64,000 nucleotides of DNA, from the NCBI GenBank assembly GCA_947626135.1, contig CANQQZ010000001.1:106132-170131 (forward strand), read 5' to 3'. Source of the DNA: an uncultured Clostridia bacterium. Its GTDB lineage: Bacteria > Bacillota > Clostridia > UBA1381. Within the stretch, counting starts at the first letter, position 1. Each line of letters opens with the position of its first letter. Below the pieces are notes generated by a model that saw nothing but the letters and a program-made list of their open reading frames with translations, ran no database searches and was not told where the DNA came from. Below, in pieces: positions 9,247-45,731 of the stretch. The position numbers and the translations under genes were made by a program.

Positions 9247-9789
9247 TTAAATAATATTTGCTTTTATAAGAGCGCGCCGCACGGCGTATGAAAGATAAGA
9301 CGCAGCCAATGCCTTTAAGATGTCAACCGGTATAAACGGAAGCACACATACCGTAAGAGCGTATTTTAGACCGACCGTCTGCACAAGCATAAACTGGATC
9401 GTTCCCATTGCGTAGCACAGCGCCGTTCCGGCGAGAACCGCCAAAAAATACCTGGCAACAATACGATATTTGCTCTGCGGCATATTAAGAGTAAGAAGCC
9501 CTATAAGAGCGGTCATGGGAATGTATGACCATATATAGCCTCCCGTCGGACCGACAAGCGGAGCGATGCCTCCGCGAAAGCCTGTGAATACCGGAACGCC
9601 GACCGCTCCAATAAGCACAAACAGCGAAACGGACGCCGTACCGTATTTTAACCCGAGTATTCCGGCCGCGAGCATAACGCCGAACAGTCCCATCGATATC
9701 GGCACCGGTTCAATGGGAACCGACATTACGGAGAATACACATAAAATTCCCGCGAATACAGCGCATATTACGATGCTTTTTGTTTTCAT
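9247..9789 (-). CDS. bioY: Biotin transporter BioY (ECF S component)
   Basis: 180 residues, six hydrophobic segments, with the family hallmarks GLKYGTASVS and GPTGGYIWSY in the substrate-binding region. It binds biotin at the membrane and normally works with a shared ECF energising module encoded elsewhere; none is in this window. GGGAGGG precedes the ATG. Its upstream region carries a near-perfect BirA operator overlapping the promoter (separate entries), strong independent support for biotin as substrate. Biotin is needed by the decarboxylase at the start of the window. Confidence 0.95.
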   Translation of the reverse strand: MKTKSIVICAVFAGILCVFSVMSVPIEPVPISMGLFGVMLAAGILGLKYGTASVSLFVLIGAVGVPVFTGFRGGIAPLVGPTGGYIWSYIPMTALIGLLTLNMPQSKYRIVARYFLAVLAGTALCYAMGTIQFMLVQTVGLKYALTVCVLPFIPVDILKALAASYLSYAVRRALIKANII

Positions 9790-9821
9790 AGACTATCCCT
9801 CCCAAAAATTATGTCTTTAAA

Positions 9822-9850
9822 ATTGTAACAGAAGCAAGGACGATTGTCAA
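9822..9850 (-). promoter_or_regulatory. bioY promoter
   Basis: Minus strand: TTGACA, 17-nt spacer, TACAAT. The -35 hexamer lies inside the right arm of the BirA operator, so repressor binding would block polymerase. Confidence 0.75.
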
Positions 9851-9876
9851 CCATTATTTTTCGGCATGGTTTACAA
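9844..9876. promoter_or_regulatory. BirA operator (biotin box)
   Basis: TTGTCAACC, 15 nt, GGTTTACAA: a nearly exact match to the known Firmicute BirA box TTGTnAACC-N15-GGTTnACAA. It covers the -35 of bioY and lies about 75 nt before the divergent gene at 9953, whose own promoter is separate. Confidence 0.88.
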
Positions 9877-9902
9877 TTATTTTTTTGCTTCCGCAAAAAG
9901 CG

Positions 9903-9932
9903 TTGTAAATGGGAGGAAAAATGTGGTACAAT
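9903..9932 (+). promoter_or_regulatory. Promoter of the HD-domain gene
   Basis: TTGTAA, 18-nt spacer, TACAAT with an extended -10 TG. The predicted transcript start is close to 9939, about 14 nt before the ATG. Confidence 0.65.
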
Positions 9933-9952
9933 GTAATTCGGAGAGTGATAAT

Positions 9953-11137
9953 ATGAATTATTATGAAAGTCTGTCGGAGGAAGCGCAGAAGAAGGTGCGC
10001 GAGCTTACGGGGTTTGACGGCTCCGAGCTCCCGAAGCCCGTGCGGCGGGATATGTCGCATGACAGGGCGAATTTATGGCGTCCGGCGTATGTGAGGGATG
10101 TGGAGAAGATAATGCACAGCCCGTATTATAATCGGTATACCGATAAGACACAGGTCTTTTCATTTTATAAAAACGACGACATTTCGCGGCGCGGTTTCCA
10201 TGTGCAGCTTGTATCGCGCATCGCGCGAAATATAGGCAGACTCCTGGGGCTTAATCTTGATTTGATAGAGGCGATAGCGCTCGGACACGATATAGGACAT
10301 ACGCCGTTCGGGCATGCGGGAGAGCGCTTTTTGAATGAATTGTATCACAATAATACCGGCAGGTATTTTAATCATAATGCTCACAGTGTCCGTGTGCTGG
10401 ACGGAATTTTCAATCTGAATCTGACATTGCAGACATTGGACGGTATTTTATGCCATAACGGAGAATTTGAGTGCAGAGAGTATCGTCCGGAGCCGCTTGA
10501 CGGATTCGGGGAATTTGATAAAAAGACGGAGGCGTGCTATACCGATCGGACAGCCGTGGAAAGGCTTGTGCCGTCCACGCTCGAGGGGTGCGTGGTACGC
10601 GTGTGCGATATGATAGCATACCTTGGCAAGGACCGGCAGGATGCGGTGAAAGCAAGGCTTATAGAGGATGAAAATGTGTTCGGTTCGTCTCCTATAGGCA
10701 GCTTTAACGCGGCTATAATTAACAACCTTATCGTTGATCTGGTGGAAAACAGCGTAGGAAAGGATTTTATAATGCTCGATAAGGTGCATTTTGACGCCGT
10801 AAAAAGCATAAAGCGTGAAAATTATGAAAAAATTTATTTTGACAACAGCATTTCCGACGGCTACGATAATATTATAAAGCCCATGTTTGCGCGCGTATAT
10901 AATTCGCTGCTGGATATGCTTAAAAGGGGCGACAGAAGCTCTGTTATTTATCGTCATCATATTGATTTTGTCAACAGCAGGCGCTCCTCCGATGACTATG
11001 AAAAAACCGAGCCCAATCAGATTGTGACCGACTATATGGCGAGTATGACCGACGATTATTTTATAGATTTGTATGAGTTTCTTTTCGGCGTGAAAAGCGG
11101 GATCGAGTACAAATCATATTTTGACGATATGCACTAA
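9953..11137 (+). CDS. HD-domain dGTP triphosphohydrolase-like protein
   Basis: 394 residues from ATG 9953 (GGAGAG 8 nt upstream); the longer ORF in the track begins inside the promoter. The HD metal site is seen as IALGHDIGHTPFGHAGE, typical of dGTPases, followed by NHNAHSVRVLD, with a later Asp in CDMIAYLGKDRQDA. Such enzymes cleave dNTPs to the nucleoside and triphosphate, or are relatives acting on other nucleotides. It is monocistronic and divergent from bioY, with no functional link evident. Confidence 0.87.
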   Translation: MNYYESLSEEAQKKVRELTGFDGSELPKPVRRDMSHDRANLWRPAYVRDVEKIMHSPYYNRYTDKTQVFSFYKNDDISRRGFHVQLVSRIARNIGRLLGLNLDLIEAIALGHDIGHTPFGHAGERFLNELYHNNTGRYFNHNAHSVRVLDGIFNLNLTLQTLDGILCHNGEFECREYRPEPLDGFGEFDKKTEACYTDRTAVERLVPSTLEGCVVRVCDMIAYLGKDRQDAVKARLIEDENVFGSSPIGSFNAAIINNLIVDLVENSVGKDFIMLDKVHFDAVKSIKRENYEKIYFDNSISDGYDNIIKPMFARVYNSLLDMLKRGDRSSVIYRHHIDFVNSRRSSDDYEKTEPNQIVTDYMASMTDDYFIDLYEFLFGVKSGIEYKSYFDDMH

Positions 11138-12793: not shown

Positions 12794-12819
12794 AAATTTA
12801 CCTCCGTTTTTTTGCTTAT

Positions 12820-12848
12820 ATTATACCATATTTGTTTTGATTTGTAAA
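12820..12848 (-). promoter_or_regulatory. Promoter of the aldo/keto reductase gene
   Basis: Minus strand TTTACA, 17-nt spacer, TATAAT with extended TG. It is back to back with the rhaB promoter, with only 16 nt between the two -35 boxes. Confidence 0.7.
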
Positions 12849-12864
12849 TCATTATCAGTAAATA

Positions 12865-12893
12865 TTGACAAAAATTTTGATTTATTGTATAAT
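12865..12893 (+). promoter_or_regulatory. rhaB promoter
   Basis: TTGACA, 17-nt spacer, TATAAT: perfect consensus hexamers. The TTG start of the ORF-track entry is the -35 box, which rules out that start. Confidence 0.85.
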
Positions 12894-12930
12894 AGTATTA
12901 AATAAATTATATAAAAGAGAGGTATTTCAC

Positions 12931-21417: not shown

Positions 21418-22482
21418 ATGGGCAGCCTCAGCGATAATTTCAGAAGCATCAAGCCGTATGTACCGGGCGAGCAGCCTCGGGATACGGAGAGAATAAAATT
21501 GAATACAAATGAGAATCCTTACCCGCCGACGCCTATGACGGCACGGGAGCTCGGACGGCTTGACCCGTCGGCGTTTAATCTTTATCCGGATCCGGAGGCG
21601 TCGGAGCTTACGGAGGCGATTGCCGCTTACCACGGATTACAACCGGAAAATGTGTTTGCGGGCGTCGGTTCAGATGATGTTTTGGCAAATTGCTTTATGG
21701 CGTTTTTCAACTCCGGCAGACCTATACTGTTCCCGGACATAACATACGCATTTTACGAGGTGTGGGCGGATTTATTTAAAATAAAATATGAGAAGGTGCC
21801 GCTCGACGGCGAACTCAGAATAGTAAAGGATGATTATCTGCGTGAAAACGGCGGGATAATCTTTCCAAACCCGAATGCGCCGACGGGAATTTGTATGGGA
21901 CTTGACGACATACGTGCGATAGCGGAATATAACAGCGACGTTGTCGTTATAGTGGACGAGGCGTATATTGATTTCGGAGGTGAAACGGCGCTGGAGTTGC
22001 TTAAGGAATACGGCAATCTTATCATAACGCGCACATTTTCAAAATCGCGTTCTATGGCGGGTATGCGGATAGGCTACGCGCTCGCGGGAGAAGAGTTGAT
22101 TTTGCAGCTGAAAAAAATAAAAAATTCGTATAATTCCTATACAATGTCTTCCGCGGCGATAAAACTGGGCGCGGCGGCAATGGCTGACGAGGAATATTTC
22201 AGATCGACCATCGAAAAAATTAAGCGGACGCGCGAAAGCGCGGCTCAAAGGCTCAGGGAGCTCGGATTTCATCTGACAAACTCGGAAAGTAATTTTCTGT
22301 TTGCCTCGCATAAAAAAATATCCGCGAAAAAAATTTTTGAGGAGCTAAAAAAAAGACGTATATATGTCCGCTATTTTGATAAACCGCGTATAGATAATTA
22401 TATCAGGATAACTGTCGGCACGGACGCGGAAATGGATGCGCTTATCGATGCTCTGACGCGTATACTGGAGGATGAAAAATGA
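21418..22482 (+). CDS. hisC: Histidinol-phosphate aminotransferase
   Basis: 354 residues, fold type I PLP enzyme. Key elements: KLNTNENPYPP at the N-terminus, NPNAPTG, VDEAYIDF (Asp contacting PLP), and TRTFSKSRSMAGMRIGYA with the Schiff-base lysine. Converts imidazole acetol phosphate to histidinol phosphate. GGAAAGGAA precedes the ATG. The stop overlaps the next start (ATGA), as expected for a translationally coupled his operon. Confidence 0.93.
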   Translation: MGSLSDNFRSIKPYVPGEQPRDTERIKLNTNENPYPPTPMTARELGRLDPSAFNLYPDPEASELTEAIAAYHGLQPENVFAGVGSDDVLANCFMAFFNSGRPILFPDITYAFYEVWADLFKIKYEKVPLDGELRIVKDDYLRENGGIIFPNPNAPTGICMGLDDIRAIAEYNSDVVVIVDEAYIDFGGETALELLKEYGNLIITRTFSKSRSMAGMRIGYALAGEELILQLKKIKNSYNSYTMSSAAIKLGAAAMADEEYFRSTIEKIKRTRESAAQRLRELGFHLTNSESNFLFASHKKISAKKIFEELKKRRIYVRYFDKPRIDNYIRITVGTDAEMDALIDALTRILEDEK

Positions 22483-23279
22483 TTTGTGATTTCCATACGC
22501 ACTCGTATTTTTCCGGAGACAGCTCCGAGCTGCCTTCAAAAATGCTTGATACGGCGATCGAAAAGGGAATGAAGAGCATATGCTTTACAGACCATCAGGA
22601 CTTTGACTACAACTACGATGCATTTGACTTTACGCTTGATTACGAGCGGTATTTTTCCGAGCTTTCGATACTCAGGGATGAGTACGCTTCGCGTATTAAC
22701 ATATTAATAGGCGTAGAAACAGGACTTGAGCCTCATTTATCGGAAAGATTAAAGGATTTCGTAGGCAAAAAGCCGTATGATTTTGTGATAGGCTCCACGC
22801 ATCTGATAAACGGAGCGGATCCGTGGTGTCCGGAGTATTTTGCCGAATACGGTGAAAAAAGGGGATTTGAAAAATATTTTGAATACGCGTTGCAATCCAT
22901 CAATGTATGTTCGGATTTTGACGTATACGGTCATTTGGATTATATCGTTCGGTATGCGCCGAATAAGGATAAATATTTTTCGTATGCCGAGTTTGCGGAT
23001 GTGATAGATGAGATATTGAAAAAGCTGATTTTTGCCGGCAAGGGTATTGAGCTTAACACAGGCGGCATATACAAGGGGATGGACCGCCCCAATCCGGCTC
23101 CCGAAATTATCCGCCGTTACCGTGAACTGGGCGGAGAGATTATCACAGTGGGTTCCGACGCGCATACAGCCGATAAAATAGGAATGGGCTTTAGCGAGGC
23201 GGAAAAAATATTGAAAAATGCGGGATTTGAATATTACACGATATTTTCGGGAAGAAAACCGCAGTTTATAAAGCTTTAG
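22479..23279 (+). CDS. hisJ: Histidinol-phosphatase, PHP family
   Basis: 266 residues. PHP metal sites: DFHTHSYFSGD at the N-terminus, FTDHQDFD, GVETG, and C-terminal GSDAHTADKIG. Dephosphorylates histidinol phosphate, the step between hisC and hisD, which matches its position; start overlaps the hisC stop by 4 nt. Also annotated hisK in some Firmicutes. Relatives in the PHP family have other substrates, but context makes this assignment strong. Confidence 0.9.
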   Translation: MICDFHTHSYFSGDSSELPSKMLDTAIEKGMKSICFTDHQDFDYNYDAFDFTLDYERYFSELSILRDEYASRINILIGVETGLEPHLSERLKDFVGKKPYDFVIGSTHLINGADPWCPEYFAEYGEKRGFEKYFEYALQSINVCSDFDVYGHLDYIVRYAPNKDKYFSYAEFADVIDEILKKLIFAGKGIELNTGGIYKGMDRPNPAPEIIRRYRELGGEIITVGSDAHTADKIGMGFSEAEKILKNAGFEYYTIFSGRKPQFIKL

Positions 23280-23294
23280 AGAGGACAGACGATA

Positions 23295-24593
23295 ATGAGA
23301 AAAGTAAGACTTACGCGGGACGCGATAAACGGCATTTTGGAAAATATGCTCAAACGAAGCCCGTCAAGCTACGGAGAATATGAGGCTGCCGTAGCGGAAA
23401 TTTTGAATGCCGTGAAAAGCGGCGGAGACGCCGCGGTTTTTGAATACACAAGAAAATTTGACGGGTTTGATTTAAATGCCGGGAATATCCGCGTAACGGA
23501 TGAGGAAACAGATGAGGCGCGCGCCCAGGTAGGCGGAGAGCTTCTGGATATAATAAGAAAATCAAAGGAAAACGTTCGTGCGTATCATATGCGTCAGCTT
23601 CAGAACAGCTGGTTTACAACGACGGATGAGGGCACTCTTTTAGGTCAGAAAATAAGCGCGCTTGACAGCGTGGGAGTTTATGTCCCCGGCGGAAAAGCGG
23701 CGTATCCGTCGTCGGTAATTATGAATATCATTCCGGCAAAGGTCGCGGGTGTAAGGAAAATCGTTATGACTACGCCGTGCGGCGCAGACGGAAAGGTTAA
23801 TCCGGTCGTTCTTGCCGCGGCGAAGGAAGCAGGAGCGGATGAGATTTATAAAATCGGAGGCGCTCAGGCGATAGGAGCGCTTGCCTTCGGCACTGAAAGC
23901 GTCCCGAAGGTGGACAAAATAGTCGGTCCGGGAAATATCTATGTCGCGCTTGCGAAAAAGGCTGTATACGGTTATGTAAACATTGATTCCGTAGCTGGAC
24001 CGAGCGAAATTCTTGTTATAGCGGATGAAACGGCGAACCCCGAATATGTAGCGGCGGACTTGCTGTCGCAGGCGGAGCATGACGAGCTCGCGTCCGCGGT
24101 GCTTATAACAGATTCCCCCGAGCTCGCCGAAAAGGTCAGCGCGGAGGCGGACAAGCTCGCGGCTCGTATGCCGCGCGAGGCTATAATAAGAAAATCGCTT
24201 GACGCGTTCGGATATATTCTTATCGCGGACAGCATTGACGACGCCGTGAAAACGGCGAATGAAATTGCCCCGGAGCATTTGGAAATTATCACGCGCAATC
24301 CGTTTGAGGTTATGACAAAAATCAAAAACGCGGGAGCAATATTCATAGGCGAGTACAGCTGCGAACCGCTGGGCGATTACTTTGCGGGTTCCAATCATGT
24401 GCTTCCGACAAACGGGACGGCGAAATTTTTCTCACCGCTGTCGGTGGATGATTTCATAAAAAAATCGAGCGTAATCTATTATTCGCGCAGCGCGCTTGAA
24501 CGGGTGCATGAGGATGTTATAAAATTCGCGGAATCCGAAAGGCTTACCGCTCATGCCAATTCTATGGCGGTTAGATTTAAGAAAAGGGATTGA
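23295..24593 (+). CDS. hisD: Histidinol dehydrogenase
   Basis: 432 residues, normal length. Recognised by GVYVPGGKAAYPSSVIMN, the GGAQAIGALAFGTESVPKVDKIVGPGN-type block, DSVAGPSEILVIAD, and DLLSQAEHDE with the Zn-binding Gln/His pair; Glu/His for catalysis in APEHLEI. Two NAD-dependent oxidations turn histidinol into histidine. GAGAGGACAG precedes the ATG; 15 nt after hisJ. Confidence 0.96.
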   Translation: MRKVRLTRDAINGILENMLKRSPSSYGEYEAAVAEILNAVKSGGDAAVFEYTRKFDGFDLNAGNIRVTDEETDEARAQVGGELLDIIRKSKENVRAYHMRQLQNSWFTTTDEGTLLGQKISALDSVGVYVPGGKAAYPSSVIMNIIPAKVAGVRKIVMTTPCGADGKVNPVVLAAAKEAGADEIYKIGGAQAIGALAFGTESVPKVDKIVGPGNIYVALAKKAVYGYVNIDSVAGPSEILVIADETANPEYVAADLLSQAEHDELASAVLITDSPELAEKVSAEADKLAARMPREAIIRKSLDAFGYILIADSIDDAVKTANEIAPEHLEIITRNPFEVMTKIKNAGAIFIGEYSCEPLGDYFAGSNHVLPTNGTAKFFSPLSVDDFIKKSSVIYYSRSALERVHEDVIKFAESERLTAHANSMAVRFKKRD

Positions 24594-33213: not shown

Positions 33214-34950
33214 TCAGTACAAAAATTTGTGGGTTATACCGTTCTTAAAGTGGATTTCGGTGATTTTGCCGTCAAAAACGACAATTTTTTTGATTACCGA
33301 ATTGACAAATTTTTTGAGGATTTTTGCGTCGATATGCTTGATTATTCTGTCGAAATTTACATACCGTTTCCCGGTAAGCTCCTGAGATATGATGAAGTAG
33401 CTCGCCTTCTCCAAAAATTCCTCATCGCTTATTGTGAACGAACTACTGGCTGCCTTGTCGATTTCCGACAGTCTTTTGTCAATTCTGTCTATGGTGTCCA
33501 GTATGTTCTTGTTCTCTATAATATATTCAGTCTCAGAGAGTGTGTCCTCGCCATATAGATATATTGACTTAAGCCTGTTAAGCTCACGTTCATACTTGCG
33601 CTTTTCTGTGATTAGAAGTTCCTTCTCTGTCATTGTGTTTTCGTCAGCGTCCGACTCCCTCTTTGGAGGCGTGAACGGATCCTCGTTGAAACGCCGGTTT
33701 ACCATCATGTCGTACATGTCCAGCAGCCCAGCCTCTGCTATAGCCTTTACGCCCTCGAATACACTTCCGCGCAAAAGCTTCTTTTGGAATGTTTCTAATG
33801 GCGTTGAACGCCCAATGTTGTTGCTTGCTTTCAGCATGTTTGCGATGTAATTCAGTACGAACGGACCCAGCGTAATGTCAGATACGCACTTGTTGTCACA
33901 TTCGGAGAACCGTCTCCGGTTGGTGCATAGATAAATAGACGGTCTGTACCCTCCGGAACGTGGTCTGTCTATCGTAGCCTGATAGTTTCCTCCGCATTTT
34001 CCGCATTTTATAAGACCGGCGAATATGTGAGTGTTTTTTCTCGAATACGTTTCCTGTGTCAATCCGTTCCTGCGCTTCCTTTCTCTGATTTCAGCGCAAC
34101 GCTCCCACTGCTCGATATTGATGATTGCAGGGTGATGGTCCGTGATAGTTATCCAGTCCCTTTCGGGTTTAAGATAAGTCGTAGAGCCACCCATACCGTC
34201 TTTATGGAGGTTGTACTGATATTCCCCCAAATAAAAGCAGCTTGTAAGTATTTTCGATACAGTAGTAGGTGTCCAGTCGTTGCCCGACCTTGTTTTTATC
34301 CCTTTTGCGTTCAAATCCTTAGTTATCTCAAGTAGCGAGCTGCCGTTCAAATAGGCATCGTATATCTTTGTTACATTTGAAGCCTCTGTTTCGTTTATGC
34401 TGAAAGTTTTGCTCTCCTTGTCGTAGTCATACCCATACGGCACCCTGCCGCCGTTCCATTGCCCTCCGGAAGCTCGTGACAGCATAACAGCCGTAACACG
34501 TTCGGAAGTCATGTTACGTTCAAGCTCTGCAAACACCAGAATAATTTTGAGCATGGCTTCTCCCATAGCGGAAGACGTATCAAACTGCTCATTTTTGCTC
34601 ACAAAGGTTACACCGAGCTTCTTTAACTCTGCATACATCGAAGCAAAATCAAGAAGATTTCTGCTTATTCTGTCGATTTTCCAGACAAGGAGATGTGAGA
34701 ACTCCCCCGTCCGCCTCCTCGACATCATCTGCTGGTAAGCAGGTCGATATATGTTCTTTCCGGAATAGCCGGCATCCTCGAACACTTCGTACTTGTCTGT
34801 GTCAATAACGTACTTGGCATAGTTTATAAGGTCCTCACGCTGGAGCGGAAGGCTGTCCTTGTCTATCTGGTAATGCGTAGATACCCTGATGTATATAGCG
34901 CATTTTTTGTTATCAAGCACAGACTGTATATCATTGTCTTTTTTACTCAA
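33214..34950 (-). CDS. Large serine recombinase (integrase of element 1)
   Basis: 578 residues. N-terminal resolvase domain with catalytic serine in YIRVSTHYQ and arginine cluster around KIDRISRNLLDF and ELERNMTSERV; recombinase domain (PF07508 type) at about 165-280 with GYDYDKES and GNDWTPTTVSKILTS; zinc ribbon with CGKCGG and CTNRRRFSECDNKC (about 305-345); coiled coil at about 430-510. Starts with TTG at 34950, overlapping the repressor stop (TTGA), GGGGGA upstream. It would integrate and excise the element; its 3' end faces the left att site. Confidence 0.95.
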   Translation of the reverse strand: MSKKDNDIQSVLDNKKCAIYIRVSTHYQIDKDSLPLQREDLINYAKYVIDTDKYEVFEDAGYSGKNIYRPAYQQMMSRRRTGEFSHLLVWKIDRISRNLLDFASMYAELKKLGVTFVSKNEQFDTSSAMGEAMLKIILVFAELERNMTSERVTAVMLSRASGGQWNGGRVPYGYDYDKESKTFSINETEASNVTKIYDAYLNGSSLLEITKDLNAKGIKTRSGNDWTPTTVSKILTSCFYLGEYQYNLHKDGMGGSTTYLKPERDWITITDHHPAIINIEQWERCAEIRERKRRNGLTQETYSRKNTHIFAGLIKCGKCGGNYQATIDRPRSGGYRPSIYLCTNRRRFSECDNKCVSDITLGPFVLNYIANMLKASNNIGRSTPLETFQKKLLRGSVFEGVKAIAEAGLLDMYDMMVNRRFNEDPFTPPKRESDADENTMTEKELLITEKRKYERELNRLKSIYLYGEDTLSETEYIIENKNILDTIDRIDKRLSEIDKAASSSFTISDEEFLEKASYFIISQELTGKRYVNFDRIIKHIDAKILKKFVNSVIKKIVVFDGKITEIHFKNGITHKFLY

Positions 34951-35318
34951 AACGCCTGTCCCCCGATTTGCTCTGTCAGTTCTGCTCGCTCAGATTCATT
35001 CAGATATTTACTTAGCAACGCCCATATTACGTTCCTGTCGGATAATGACGCTCTGTTGTATGCAAGAAGGAGAAGCTTTACATCGACAGAATACGAAGGA
35101 TTTGCAGTTTCAACATTCGTAAGACCTATAAGGTAATCAACAGACACGTTCAAGCACCTTGATATATCTTTAAGAGTATCAAGGATTGGAGGCTTGTGAA
35201 TCTGAGAAGCGTACCTTGATATAGTAGCTTCTGTCGTGTTCGCGTTCTCTGCTACCCAACGCTGCGTAACTCCCCGCTTTTCGATTGTTTGTTTTAGAAT
35301 TTCTCCAAACTCCGCCAT
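34947..35318 (-). CDS. XRE-family repressor of element 1
   Basis: 123 residues from ATG 35318 (GAGGTGAT upstream); the track start at 35411 is too far out. Helix-turn-helix at about residues 8-60: KQTIEKRGVTQRWVAENANT followed by TEATISRYASQIHKPP and the usual LNVSVDYLIGLT ending. The C-terminal part is a short helical domain without a peptidase site, so it is not a self-cleaving CI type. It overlaps the recombinase gene, so repressor and integrase share one transcript. Confidence 0.9.
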   Translation of the reverse strand: MAEFGEILKQTIEKRGVTQRWVAENANTTEATISRYASQIHKPPILDTLKDISRCLNVSVDYLIGLTNVETANPSYSVDVKLLLLAYNRASLSDRNVIWALLSKYLNESERAELTEQIGGQAF

Positions 35319-35466
35319 AAGTATCACCTCGATTATATTATATAGAAAAATTACCGTAATGTAAATAAAAATTACGATTTTTATAAAAAATTTATAAAAA
35401 TTACTTGACAATTACCGAACGATAAGCTGTAATGCAATTATAGTCAATTTTACAAGGAGGGATAAG
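35319..35466. promoter_or_regulatory. Divergent operator/promoter region of element 1
   Basis: Minus promoter TTTACA-17-TATAAT (rightmost -35 near 35373) drives the repressor; plus promoter TTGACA-17-TGTAAT starts near 35404. Related half-sites ATTACCGTAAT, ATTACG and ATTACCGAACGATAAT-like fall in the two spacers, where a repressor would block both promoters. The exact operator consensus is uncertain. Confidence 0.6.
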
Positions 35467-35718
35467 ATGAGGGCGAACAAGCTGAAAGGTAAGCGAATCG
35501 AAATGGGCTTCACGCAATCGGAAATTGCTGATTTAATAGAAAAGTCGGTCGATGCTTATGCAAAAAAAGAGCGCGGAGAAACCGGATTTTCGCCGACAGA
35601 AATTGCAATCTTGACGATTGCTCTCATGCTCAGTTATTCTGAGTTCAATGAAATTTTTTTTGACGGCAGGTTACCGTTCGGTAATTTTGTTGATGTTCCG
35701 AGTGATGGCGATGGATAA
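35467..35718 (+). CDS. Cro-like XRE-type DNA-binding protein
   Basis: 83 residues with a single helix-turn-helix: GKRIEMGFTQSEIADLIEK followed by SVDAYAKKERGETGFSP, then LSYSEFNEIFFDG. Divergent from the repressor across the operator region, as in phage lysogeny switches. AAGGAGG precedes the ATG. Confidence 0.85.
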   Translation: MRANKLKGKRIEMGFTQSEIADLIEKSVDAYAKKERGETGFSPTEIAILTIALMLSYSEFNEIFFDGRLPFGNFVDVPSDGDG

Positions 35719-37106: not shown

Positions 37107-37197
37107 TTTTGAACTGCTTGTCACTAAAGGCTGCGCCGATAGGAAGGGCATTATATTCTTTCTGTTGCCGTTCCCTCATTTGTGCGTATCTGTTCAT
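37098..37197 (-). pseudogene. Truncated small phage protein
   Basis: Starts at ATG 37197 with AAAGGAG 11 nt upstream: MNRYAQMRERQQKEYNALPI followed by GAAFSDKQFKKVM. I recognise this as the start of a small phage protein family (DUF7659-like). It breaks at the same point, about 37098-37106, where the exonuclease fragment ends on the other strand. Confidence 0.6.
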
Positions 37198-37226: not shown

Positions 37227-37808
37227 TTAAATAAGGAATCCGAAACAAACGCCATAAGAGCCGTCAGCGTAGTTGACGTTGGCGCCGACGTTGCTGTAGA
37301 CACTGCAAAAGAGAGCCGAGTAGGTCGTACTGGGTGAACGCACCCACCACCAAATCGAGTTGCCGTCTGCGTCGCATTTTATCCGATTCGCGGGTTCCTT
37401 AAAATACGCAAACTGCGTCCCGTGGTCGGATTCCTGTTCGGTCCAGCTCTGCTCGCCGAAAACTTCTGCCTCTGAAAAAAGCCACAGCTTGTCCTGCGTT
37501 TCGCTTAAAGAGCGAGGCTTGATAACGCTCTGCAAATCGTCGGGAAGCAAGCTAAAGACTTCTTCGTTAAGGTAACGGCGCATGTCGCTTTTAGCCCAAC
37601 CGCCTTCATTTGTCGCGGTCGGATTCATGCAATGCTGCTTAACGAGGCAATTTTTCAGCCCGATAACGCCGTCGTCAATAACAATGAAAATAACTTTCTC
37701 GCCGTTTTTAAGTACATCGGAAATTTCATCTCCGACTTTAAGCTCAGCGGGGTTACAATCCGCCCAGCTAAAAGTTTTTACTTCTGATGCAGTTGCTATT
37801 GTTGCCAT
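37227..37808 (-). CDS. DUF6273 (C-type-lectin-like) protein with DGR-like variable tail
   Basis: 193 residues. The first third is a small beta domain (ELKVGDEISDVLKNGEKVIF); the rest follows the DUF6273 pattern, with NEGGWAKSDMRRYLNE, LWLFSEAEVFGE and WWWVRSPS. The last 35 residues (FCSVYSNVGANVNYADGSYG then VCFGF) align with the template-derived tails of retroelement-diversified lectin-fold proteins. Probable ligand-binding surface or virion protein. GGAGG lies 9 nt before the ATG. No reverse transcriptase or template repeat was found in the window. The gene lies in the minus-strand block of element 1. Confidence 0.82.
   Translation of the reverse strand: MATIATASEVKTFSWADCNPAELKVGDEISDVLKNGEKVIFIVIDDGVIGLKNCLVKQHCMNPTATNEGGWAKSDMRRYLNEEVFSLLPDDLQSVIKPRSLSETQDKLWLFSEAEVFGEQSWTEQESDHGTQFAYFKEPANRIKCDADGNSIWWWVRSPSTTYSALFCSVYSNVGANVNYADGSYGVCFGFLI
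37261..37335 (-). other. Candidate diversity-generating retroelement variable region
   Basis: In the frame of the DUF6273 gene, the codons at the presumed variable positions are ACC, TAC, TGC, TAC, AAC, GTC, GGC, AAC, GTC, AAC, TAC, GAC and GGC: all end in C and each is reachable from AAC by changing adenines only. Intervening codons match the fixed residues F, V, S, A and SYGV seen in diversified tails. Confidence 0.5.
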
Positions 37809-40102: not shown

Positions 40103-40564
40103 TTAAACATTCAGTGCATTTTTCAGCATTACCATGTGATATATCATAGAATCAAGACATTGTGCGACTGCTTCATGGTTTTCATACTTATTTTGCAATT
40201 CATTTATTTTCAGCTTGCTTGTAGCTTCGTGTACTGAATTCGCGCTATCAGTACGATTATACACAGTGGAAAGTAGCCAGCTAAAGAAATCTCTTTCTTC
40301 GGCATACTCGTCTGCTATAGCCTTTACCGCTGACTCTCCTATACAAATATAGCGATAGCTTCTCACACCATCATCATCTTTAACCGATTTCACCGAGTGC
40401 ATAAGCCCCATATTTCTTACAATGTTACTTGGAGAGTCTATACCTAAAATACGGCATAAATCCGACAAAACTATTAAAGTTTCTCTCGTATCATCTGTAA
40501 TGGTTCTTATGCTAAATTCTAATGTATAATTAAATCTTTTGGGTATGTATGTTTTTACTAACAT
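40103..40564 (-). CDS. BRO-N-type phage antirepressor-like protein
   Basis: 153 residues. The N-terminal half resembles the BRO-N DNA-binding domain of prophage antirepressors: RTITDDTRETLIVLSDLCRI and LGIDSPSNIVRNMGL, then IGESAVKAIADEYAEERDFF. The C-terminal half is helical. Such proteins relieve repression or act in late regulation. AAAGGAAG precedes the ATG. The divergent region downstream of it contains no obvious operator. Confidence 0.65.
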   Translation of the reverse strand: MLVKTYIPKRFNYTLEFSIRTITDDTRETLIVLSDLCRILGIDSPSNIVRNMGLMHSVKSVKDDDGVRSYRYICIGESAVKAIADEYAEERDFFSWLLSTVYNRTDSANSVHEATSKLKINELQNKYENHEAVAQCLDSMIYHMVMLKNALNV

Positions 40565-42862: not shown

Positions 42863-42900
42863 GTTAACGGGGGATTAATTTATCCCCTGTTAACTTTTTT
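42863..42900. terminator. Terminator between the AAA+ fragment and the nuclease gene
   Basis: GTTAACGGGGGA / TCCCCTGTTAAC stem followed by TTTTTT on the plus strand. It also covers the stop of the convergent nuclease gene. Confidence 0.88.
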
Positions 42901-43509
42901 ATAGTCGTCAATAATCAAGTCTACAGATTCCCGAATTCCGTCATACTCGCATTTTATTGGATTGAGCGAATTCAATTTTTTTAGATTTATAGTTTTTTGG
43001 TCGCCAAGTTTTTCGTCAAGCAGTTTTGTAGGAACTATATAGAAATCCCAGTGGTCGAGAACCATGGGATTCGCAGTAGGTTTATCCCTATATTTGTATA
43101 AGCAAAAAATATAGAGAGCAGAATGCCGTTTTCTTTTGTTGTCATCGCTTTTATCTATTAAATCCCATGTAGATTTTTCGTTTGTTTTTCTTATAGAAAA
43201 GCTTATATTTGCCGGCTGAGTTTGATTCCAAGCCTGTACATAAGCCGATGTTTTAACTTCTATATAACAATTCCTATACATTAAATCCCATGCTTGATTA
43301 TCAGTGCGCGCTTCTGTAAAGTCTATACCTAAAGCATTTCCTATTACATATTCCATCATAGGACCCCTATTGCCGGAATCGAGTATATCAGAGATGAACC
43401 ACATAGCAAAATCTGAAAATGTTTTATCTAAAGGGATTCCGTAGAAAGTAAAGTGTTCATCTCCTTTAAACAGTTTACGTCTATAATTTTCTGTAACATT
43501 GTATTCCAT
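42880..43509 (-). CDS. Orphan PD-(D/E)XK endonuclease-like protein
   Basis: 209 residues, single gene with GGAGG before the ATG. The candidate active site is a Glu/Asp before and an ExK strand: GNALGIDFTEARTDNQAWDL followed by CYIEVKTSAYVQAW, i.e. D-(x)n-ExK. The rest (SALYIFCLYKYRDKPTAN and VLDHWDFYIVPT) matches endonucleases of the restriction type. No methyltransferase partner is intact nearby; the ParB-like gene next door belongs to a family sometimes fused to one. A defence or packaging nuclease is plausible. Confidence 0.6.
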   Translation of the reverse strand: MEYNVTENYRRKLFKGDEHFTFYGIPLDKTFSDFAMWFISDILDSGNRGPMMEYVIGNALGIDFTEARTDNQAWDLMYRNCYIEVKTSAYVQAWNQTQPANISFSIRKTNEKSTWDLIDKSDDNKRKRHSALYIFCLYKYRDKPTANPMVLDHWDFYIVPTKLLDEKLGDQKTINLKKLNSLNPIKCEYDGIRESVDLIIDDYKKVNRG

Positions 43510-43716: not shown

Positions 43717-44143
43717 ATGGAAGAGAAAAGAATTGAAACAATTACATTAAAAGCCAAGGAACCAAAGACGGGGTTCGGCAATCCCCGTAAAATCATGAAG
43801 AAGAAATTAGAGGAGCTTGCAGAATCGTTAGAGTTGTACGGCGATTTTGGGCTTTTTTTAATTGATGAACACAACAACGTAATTGCCGGCAATCAAAGGC
43901 TGCAAGTGATAGTCAAGAAAAATCCGGAGCAAGAGCTGCTATGCAAACGGCTGATAGGTTATACCGAAGCTGAATTAAGAGCTATCAACATAAAAGATAA
44001 CACGCATAACGGCGAATGGGACTTAGACCTTCTTGCTGCTTGGACAGCTGATTTAACTCTTGATTTGGGTATAGACCTCAACAATAAAGATGTCAATGAA
44101 CGCATAATACCTGACTTGGAACCTGTTAGATATGAAAAATATC
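43717..44143 (+). pseudogene. ParB/sulfiredoxin-domain protein, truncated
   Basis: About 142 residues. The ParB-like nuclease domain is seen in NPRKIMKKKLEELAESLELYG and the DEHNNVIAGNQRL motif, followed by LCKRLIGYTEAELRAINIKD and NTHNGEWDLDLLA. In phages this N-terminal domain is normally followed by another domain, often a DNA methyltransferase. Here it ends in VRYEKY and fuses to a tape-measure sequence at about 44137-44143, shifting frame and stopping at 44169. Confidence 0.75.
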
Positions 44144-45338
44144 TGCATCCGGTGATATTTCGGTCATAGATGATGTGTCAGGAAAGATAAAGGAACTGCA
44201 ATCTGCAAGCGGAGTCAATGTCAGCGTCGATGCAAACGGAAACATATCTGTTCTTGACGAAGCAAGCGGCAAAATGCAAACACTTGAAGGAATGAACGCT
44301 GTCAGTGTACAGGTAAACTCCGAAGGTAATATTGACATTCTGAACGAAGCTTCTCAGGTTATAGGCACAATCAACTCTGAAACTGTACAGTTGACCGTAA
44401 ACGGAGATTTCTCCGGACAGGATGAACTTCAAGCCGCAGCAGATGCCGCCGCAAACATTACTGACACAAGCTCTACCATTGCAGTTATAGGAAGTTTTAC
44501 CGACCAACAGGCAATACAGAGCGCGGTCGATTTAGGCGGACAGTTGACGGACATAACGACAGCTGAAACCGTAAACGGCGTGTTTAACGGTCAGGCTGAT
44601 ATTGCAGCCGCTATAGCTTATCAGGGGCAGCTCGCAGACAGAAACGTCACCTATACTGTAAACTATGTTCAGAACGGAACGCCACCGAAAAACAGTGCAG
44701 AAGGTACATCTTACTTTGGCGGCGGTTATACCTATGTAAACGACCAGAAAGGCATATCTGACCCGACAGAGTTGATTTACCAGAGAGGACAGCTGTTCAC
44801 TCTCGAAGGAGAAAACGTACTTACTTACCTTGAAAAAGGCGCGAAGATATTTACTGCCGCAGAAACGTCGAAGATATTAGACGGAGACATGGACGGCTTG
44901 AGGAAAAGGCTTAATAGCCGTGAGTATTCTGCTCTTGGAAGTTTATCTGAAACCTTATTTGGTAATGTACGGAGAGTCCCCGAACATGCAGACGGAACGA
45001 CCTATGCAGAAGATGTGTTCATAGCAGGAGAAGAAGGACCTGAACTGATTTTAGGCAGGAAAGGTTCTACGGTATTCCCGTCAAGCGAGACCAACAGGCT
45101 GATGAGAGGGTTTGAAGACGATGATTACAGAGTCCAGCCCCCGAAAGAAAAAGAAAGTAAATCTCAAACCTCCGGTGGAGACAGAAGGCTTGTAATAGAG
45201 ATAAACGGTAACGGCAGTATCAAGACCGACAGTAAAGAGACAGCTACTGCATATATCATGAGCCAGTTGAAGCCGAAGATTTTGGAGATATTCGAGGAGG
45301 AAATATACGAGGAAGGCGATGTAAGTCGTGACTTCTAA
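44143..45338 (+). pseudogene. Phage tail tape-measure protein, C-terminal fragment
   Basis: About 395 residues. Repeats of the type ISVIDDVSGKIKELQS and ISVLDEASGKMQTL, then hydrophobic Ala-rich segments, and the characteristic tape-measure C-terminus (HADGTTYAEDVFIAGEEGPE, LILGRKGSTVFPSSET). The N-terminal several hundred residues are missing; the frame is open from the junction with the ParB fragment, and only an unsupported GTG (44175) could start it. Confidence 0.8.
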
Positions 45339-45353
45339 ATTGGAGGTGATCGG

Positions 45354-45731
45354 ATGGCAGTTGAAGAAACAGTAGTTGAACGTGTGAGAGAGTCAAAGCC
45401 GTATGAAATGTGGTTGAGCTACGATGACGGCAACGAACGTATACATTTTCCTGTCAATCCCGAAAAGATTACTCTTGATACCGGAGATGGTGTAAAAACG
45501 GTAGATGTTGTCGGCTTAGGAGAAATACTGATGCACAAAGACCGCCCTGCATATAGGTGGTCTTTTAGCTCGTTCCTGCCAGCTAACACCTTCCCCGGCA
45601 TCAATTTCCGGTATGTATACAGTCCCTACACAATCAAGGCGAAGTTACAGAGCTGGAAGGACGCAGACAGAGTATGTCATTTTATCGTCAGCGACATTTT
45701 CATATGGGCGTACCATTGCCGATTACGTTAA
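45354..45731 (+). pseudogene. XkdP-like tail assembly protein, truncated
   Basis: Starts well (GGAGGTGATC, ATG 45354) with SKPYEMWLSYDDGNERIHFP and VNPEKITLDTGDGVKTVDV, then LKSWKDADRVCHFIVS-like. This resembles the PBSX XkdP-type proteins that follow the tape measure. The normal continuation after FIVS (a beta strand then a LysM domain) is missing; near 45690 the sequence switches to a different frame (SYGRTIADYVKFYEYVAENV then stop), probably the end of some other gene. Confidence 0.65.

Follow-up and report, generated by a model that had tools for sequence, protein, structure and literature searches.

Remote second variable regions (VRs) of diversity-generating retroelements (DGRs) are known from gut prophages that are inducible and carry a complete DGR (PMC12629997, Nature 2025). 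In the Quimbyviridae one DGR has two C-lectin targets, one structural and one distal among methyltransferases; the latter is non-structural and lies in a defence-related neighbourhood (PMC8008677). According to the part of its description relayed in PMC11792537, Roseburia phage Shimadzu has a two-target DGR. In Faecalibacterium phages Lelie and CP11 (PMC11792537) and in the tgt2 genes of nd4 and nd12 (PMC10743442), the second target of one template repeat (TR) is a DUF6273 protein with a C-terminal VR. The tgt2 proteins consist of a single DUF6273 domain alone, and published models of DUF6273 targets show a C-type-lectin-like fold (PMC10743442).

The locus examined here lies in a 64,000-nucleotide stretch of DNA from an uncultured Clostridia bacterium (the window; contig CANQQZ010000001.1). 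Unlike the inducible gut prophages, it retains the target alone. The Quimbyviridae element differs in being complete and in belonging to phages of Bacteroidetes, and its targets were not shown to be DUF6273 proteins. Complete DGRs are likewise published for Lelie, CP11, nd4 and nd12, with the nd4 and nd12 targets inside the DGR cassette. Shimadzu orf43 (LR596903) is a homologue of the window protein (35% identical) with a C-terminal VR and a TR 14 kb away beside the reverse transcriptase (RT), but it belongs to an intact phage and adjoins methyltransferase and Erf genes. Dulem virus 37 (PP511443) has tape-measure and LysM genes in common with the prophage remnant in the window and a DGR with one target in the tail and one remote, but both targets have FGE-sulfatase-type lectin folds rather than DUF6273. 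Second remote targets are thus already published; what is new here is the orphan state, a modest novelty, and the codon-level signature by which it is recognised.

The DUF6273 gene and its variable tail

The gene occupies 37227..37808 on the minus strand, has a clear ribosome-binding site and encodes a small single-domain DUF6273 protein of 193 aa (PF19789, E 4.6e-20), which we assign as a remote DGR target. Seven phage contigs encode DGR targets that are 58-61% identical to the protein over its full length. The C-terminal sequence of the protein is WWWVRSPSTTYSALFCSVYSNVGANVNYADGSYGVCFGFLI. The VR spans 37239..37349 (minus strand, W154 to G190, 37 codons), its extent being taken from homologous TR/VR pairs. 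This tail of about 37 codons aligns without gaps to the VRs of seven phage homologues, and the codon alignment with the TR/VR pairs of L027, L029, L030, L032 and L031 is also gap-free.

The first-pass annotation had seen in the tail's codons the signature of a DGR variable region, and the signature proved real. At the 12 AAC/AAT columns of the L027 TR the window has AGT, TAC, CTC, AGT, TAC, AAC, GGC, AAC, GTC, AAC, TAC and GGC. The claim that all variable codons are NNC fails for the two AGT codons, the only NNT codons among these 12; both are at columns that read AAT in the homologous TR, which makes the fit better than was claimed. C-ending codons make up 21 of 36 in the tail versus 29% in the gene body. 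At the AAY codons of the L027 TR the window keeps base 1 in 5 of 12 cases, base 2 in 6 of 12 and base 3 in 11 of 12 (bases 1 and 2 together, 11/24). Conservation in the gene body runs in the opposite order (0.72, 0.80 and 0.53 for codon bases 1, 2 and 3). Over the whole L027 TR, 14 of 33 A sites are kept in the window versus 60 of 78 non-A sites (Fisher p 8e-4). The L032 TR gives the same trend more weakly, with AAY base 3 kept in 12/15 and bases 1 and 2 in 13/30. Homology and this codon pattern together support the tail as a DGR variable region.

The conserved 3' end of the VR (37239..37256, minus strand; GGC GTT TGT TTC GGA) occupies the place of the initiation-of-mutagenic-homing motif, an assignment made from its position. 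The same bases close both TR and VR in near homologues and occur in a single copy in the window. At 37239-37241 the window VR ends in GGA, whereas the VRs of close relatives end in GGC and their TRs in GGA; because of this the homing signal of the window VR cannot be matched exactly. This GGA may have arisen by chance or be a remnant of the template's sequence.

An AlphaFold2 model of the target protein has a pLDDT of 78, with about 53-76 in the VR part. When this moderate-confidence model was searched against PDB structures the best match was 9qa6 (E 3.6e-3), the rest being mostly C-lectins with E near 1 and above, so that the model is only weakly lectin-like. A PDB sequence search with the protein gave no match. 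In line with the published models, it most likely displays a variable surface for ligand binding on what would be a C-type-lectin-like fold.

No near-identical strain copy or strain-level variant of the gene was found among genomes of the same genus, family and order, which yielded one distant DUF6273 protein only, in the same-genus genome G004. The window's own genome holds six further DUF6273 matches, all in large ORFs. One ORF of 1840 aa with three DUF6273 domains (G000:C21:8901-11795), in the host genome outside the prophage, is a possible surface protein.

One template and two targets in related phages

Single-protein scans of viral and genome contigs with the window protein returned nothing; homologues were recovered by alignment queries, and the close ones (L027-L032 and L056) were drawn from IMG/VR. 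All of these contigs except the 5.3-kb L028 carry a DGR-type RT. Three annotated phages, Roseburia phage Shimadzu (orf43), Dulem virus 34 and Acutalibacter phage Fontainebleau, have the small homologue in a non-structural (early/replication) block. In all three, an A-rich repeat next to the RT, at a distance of 14-26 kb, corresponds to the final ~35 codons, and every or nearly every difference between the two is at a template A. Related phages that have the gene therefore carry both an RT and a TR, and their tails vary at A-derived positions rather than at all bases equally, the two outcomes that the first-pass annotation had set against its own reading having been their opposites.

Non-A positions of the TR are matched in the small-gene tail at 78/78 (L027), 77/78 (L029), 79/79 (L032), 78/78 (L033), 75/75 (Shimadzu), 75/75 (Dulem virus 34) and 64/64 (Fontainebleau), and A is changed at 14-17 of 23-35 sites, about half. 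Where the sequence examined includes the fibre gene, one TR fits both VRs: 74-79 of 75-79 non-A positions agree (62-64 of 64 for Fontainebleau), while 12-18 of the A's are changed. These phages thus have two VRs per TR, one in the tail-fibre gene beside the RT and one in the small DUF6273 gene 4-26 kb off. The arrangement in L032 is DUF6273 tail fibre, Avd, TR, RT, endolysin, N6-methyltransferase-like gene and small DUF6273 gene, with Avd (phrog_3206) and RT (phrog_1423, 7e-76) beside the DUF6273-type fibre gene.

The 468-bp gene body is the same in L027, L028, L029 and L030, without a single difference, and the 3 kb upstream are likewise free of differences among L027, L029 and L030. Their tails are of three kinds (L028 is the same as L029) that differ at 17-19 VR sites, 17-18 of which are TR adenines. 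This comparison, made between sequences, is direct evidence of diversification in that clade. Confinement of variation to TR adenines is thus seen directly in L027-L030 and indirectly in the window, through the unequal retention of A and non-A sites. Since the window gene's own TR was never seen, its diversification is read from homologues that are 40% different.

Remote targets also occur outside this group. In Dulem virus 37 (PP511443.1) a remote second VR lies in an FGE-sulfatase-type lectin gene at 22248-23393, with the TR near 12816-12924. The FGE-sulfatase assignment falls just below the Pfam cut-off and the gene is near an N6_Mtase gene; the TR match is weaker at the flanks, and in the core 49/50 positions are equal or have A in the TR. 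In CAMCNO010000005.1 (L060) a 300-aa DUF6273-like protein is encoded at 9680-10582. Its tail is identical to a TR beside an RT at 45/50 positions, and 50/50 are equal or have A in the TR. The L060 target and the L065 RT/TR apparently lie on one contig, ~36 kb apart.

A target gene in a prophage remnant

The window locus is a DGR target but falls short of a complete DGR, since searches for RT and TR found neither. The genome is a draft of 2.33 Mb in 50 contigs and is 84% complete. The first-pass annotation had seen no RT and no template in the window; both absences were confirmed, an A-masked search of the window for a TR giving no match. The wider hunt it proposed, for an A-rich repeat and an RT across the genome, found neither: RVT_1 and the DGR-RT profile phrog_1423 had no match in the 2.33-Mb, 84%-complete assembly, and the A-masked search of the whole genome with up to 3 mismatches returned only the gene itself. 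An Avd search of the genome gave no match, with the controls silent as well. The same-genus genome G004 has no RVT_1 match.

The gene sits in what appears from its gene content to be a rearranged, decayed prophage. At the left are a large serine integrase of 578 aa (33214..34950, minus; PF00239 1.5e-35, PF07508 5e-27, PF13408) and an HTH repressor (34947..35411, minus; PF01381 9e-7), followed by a few plus-strand early genes, among them a regulator of Cro/repressor type (35467..35718, plus; phrog_3 1.1e-7). Next comes the 5' stub of a phage exonuclease (36890..37110, plus; phrog_298, E 2.2e-7), whose homology ends after ~37110. It meets head-on the 5' stub of another phage gene (MNRYAQMRERQQKEYNALPIGAAFSDKQFKKVMQ..., 37110..37197, minus; identified from its translation, no PHROG match), cut at the rearrangement junction near 37110. 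Because the stubs are convergent, we infer an inversion and a deletion. The DUF6273 gene follows, and minus-strand phage genes run from it to 41.6 kb. They include, upstream of the target, a phage protein (38004..38534, minus; phrog_19789, E 6e-41; 44% to Bacillus phage Eoghan), which as a query reached no intact sister phage, and a BRO-N/antirepressor-like protein (40103..40564, minus; PF02498 1.3e-4, phrog_130 2e-4). At 42880-43509 (minus) the remnant also encodes a protein that has an IEVKTSAY motif and no Pfam or PHROG match; it may be a PD-(D/E)XK restriction enzyme.

Further right are a ParB-like N-terminal fragment of the ParB/methyltransferase type (43717..44169, plus; phrog_620 2.8e-18, phrog_498 3e-17), a C-terminal fragment of a tape-measure protein (44175..45338, plus; phrog_1293 2.4e-11; 40% to Dulem virus 37) and a short, probably truncated LysM-type tail assembly protein (45354..45731, plus; phrog_380 4.8e-23), in the same gene order as in Dulem virus 37. 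That phage has the same order of integrase (minus), repressor (minus), early genes (plus) and nuclease as the remnant, and the same tape-measure/LysM pair. In Dulem virus 37 LysM is followed by baseplate, target, Avd and RT, whereas the window lacks everything past LysM: baseplate, fibre and the RT/DGR segment are absent.

The gene is very probably the orphaned, frozen remote second target of a two-target phage DGR, left in a decayed prophage. In intact relatives the RT/Avd complex would reverse-transcribe the A-rich TR that adjoins the tail-fibre gene, placing random bases at A. The resulting cDNA would then take the place of the corresponding 3' ends of two genes, the tail-fibre gene and the small DUF6273 gene elsewhere in the phage genome. 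Two-target rewriting in these relatives is shown by comparison of TR and VRs, and its biochemistry would follow established DGR biology. In the window the prophage appears to have been rearranged and to have lost the segment past the tape-measure and LysM genes, the expected place of fibre, Avd, TR and RT. The target gene itself has survived whole, and its tail probably still has the sequence of the last rewriting.

A prophage of a Clostridia MAG (L059, CANRFR010000003.1) probably holds another orphan of this target family: there the homologue (9986-10582, 55% identical over its full length) follows lysis genes. The fibre of that prophage is of the Peptidase_G2 type without DUF6273, and no TR or DGR cassette was found within the 20 kb examined. 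The RTs of the L059 genome were considered as a source in trans and rejected; they are group II intron-like by sequence and have no matching TR. The window may thus not be the only case in which a remote target has outlived its cassette.

The first-pass annotation had left three readings side by side: a target served in trans, a relic, and ordinary family variation. A relic that was once a remote second target is favoured because the prophage is decayed and without an RT segment and the genome is without a detectable RT or TR. A still-active target, rewritten by an RT and TR in the missing 16% of the genome, in another prophage or on a plasmid, would suit the intact ORF and the remote action seen over 14-26 kb in Shimadzu, Dulem virus 34 and Fontainebleau (and over ~36 kb for L060 and L065, if both loci are on one contig), but the RT and TR searches of the 2.33 Mb and the lack of an RVT_1 match in G004 speak against it and we consider it very improbable. 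The prophage might instead be intact in the organism, its RT/TR segment dropped or chimerised in assembly. A draft in 50 contigs could suffer this, and a convergent junction is the kind that misassembly could make; yet non-phage genes flank the remnant left and right within a contig at least 170 kb long, and exonuclease, tape measure and ParB are independently fragmentary, as in real decay, which makes such an artefact very improbable. That the gene is an ordinary DUF6273 lectin-fold gene, its C-terminal loop varying by normal selection and never a DGR target, is the least credible reading: DUF6273 does occur in bacterial non-phage proteins, and this DGR-less genome has six other matches, but the reversal of codon-position conservation at exactly the TR-AAY codons contradicts it, and in the close relatives TR matches and tail differences restricted to A show the gene to be a target.

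Methyltransferase neighbours and significance of the probable orphan target

In independent lineages a DNA methyltransferase gene lies immediately upstream of the small DUF6273 gene. In L032 it is of the N6_Mtase type (PF02384), with homologous genes in L027, L029, L031 and L056. In L026 it is of the N6_N4_Mtase type (PF01555), in Dulem virus 34 it is annotated as an adenine methyltransferase, and in Shimadzu a C5-methylase fragment (weak Pfam match) lies upstream of orf43. This adjacency agrees with PMC12629997 and PMC8008677 and suggests that the protein may have an intracellular role in phage-host conflict. A bolder and rather doubtful proposal is that these genes encode a recurring class of intracellular phage proteins that DGRs diversify and that are coupled to DNA methyltransferases (DUF6273 beside unrelated types in the L032 clade, Dulem virus 34/L026 and Shimadzu; another lectin type near an N6-methyltransferase in Dulem virus 37), the window and L059 copies being retained after RT loss because they would still be of use to the lysogen, for instance through anti-phage or superinfection interactions.

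Reversal of codon-position conservation, together with homologous TRs, makes it possible to recognise a DGR target whose own RT and TR are missing. Such orphans escape RT-centred DGR surveys; one survey states that its approach would miss remote targets (PMC8144416). The phages compared here are further cases of a single template serving both a tail fibre and a non-structural protein, the latter repeatedly beside a DNA methyltransferase. With this adjacency the role of the second protein becomes testable.
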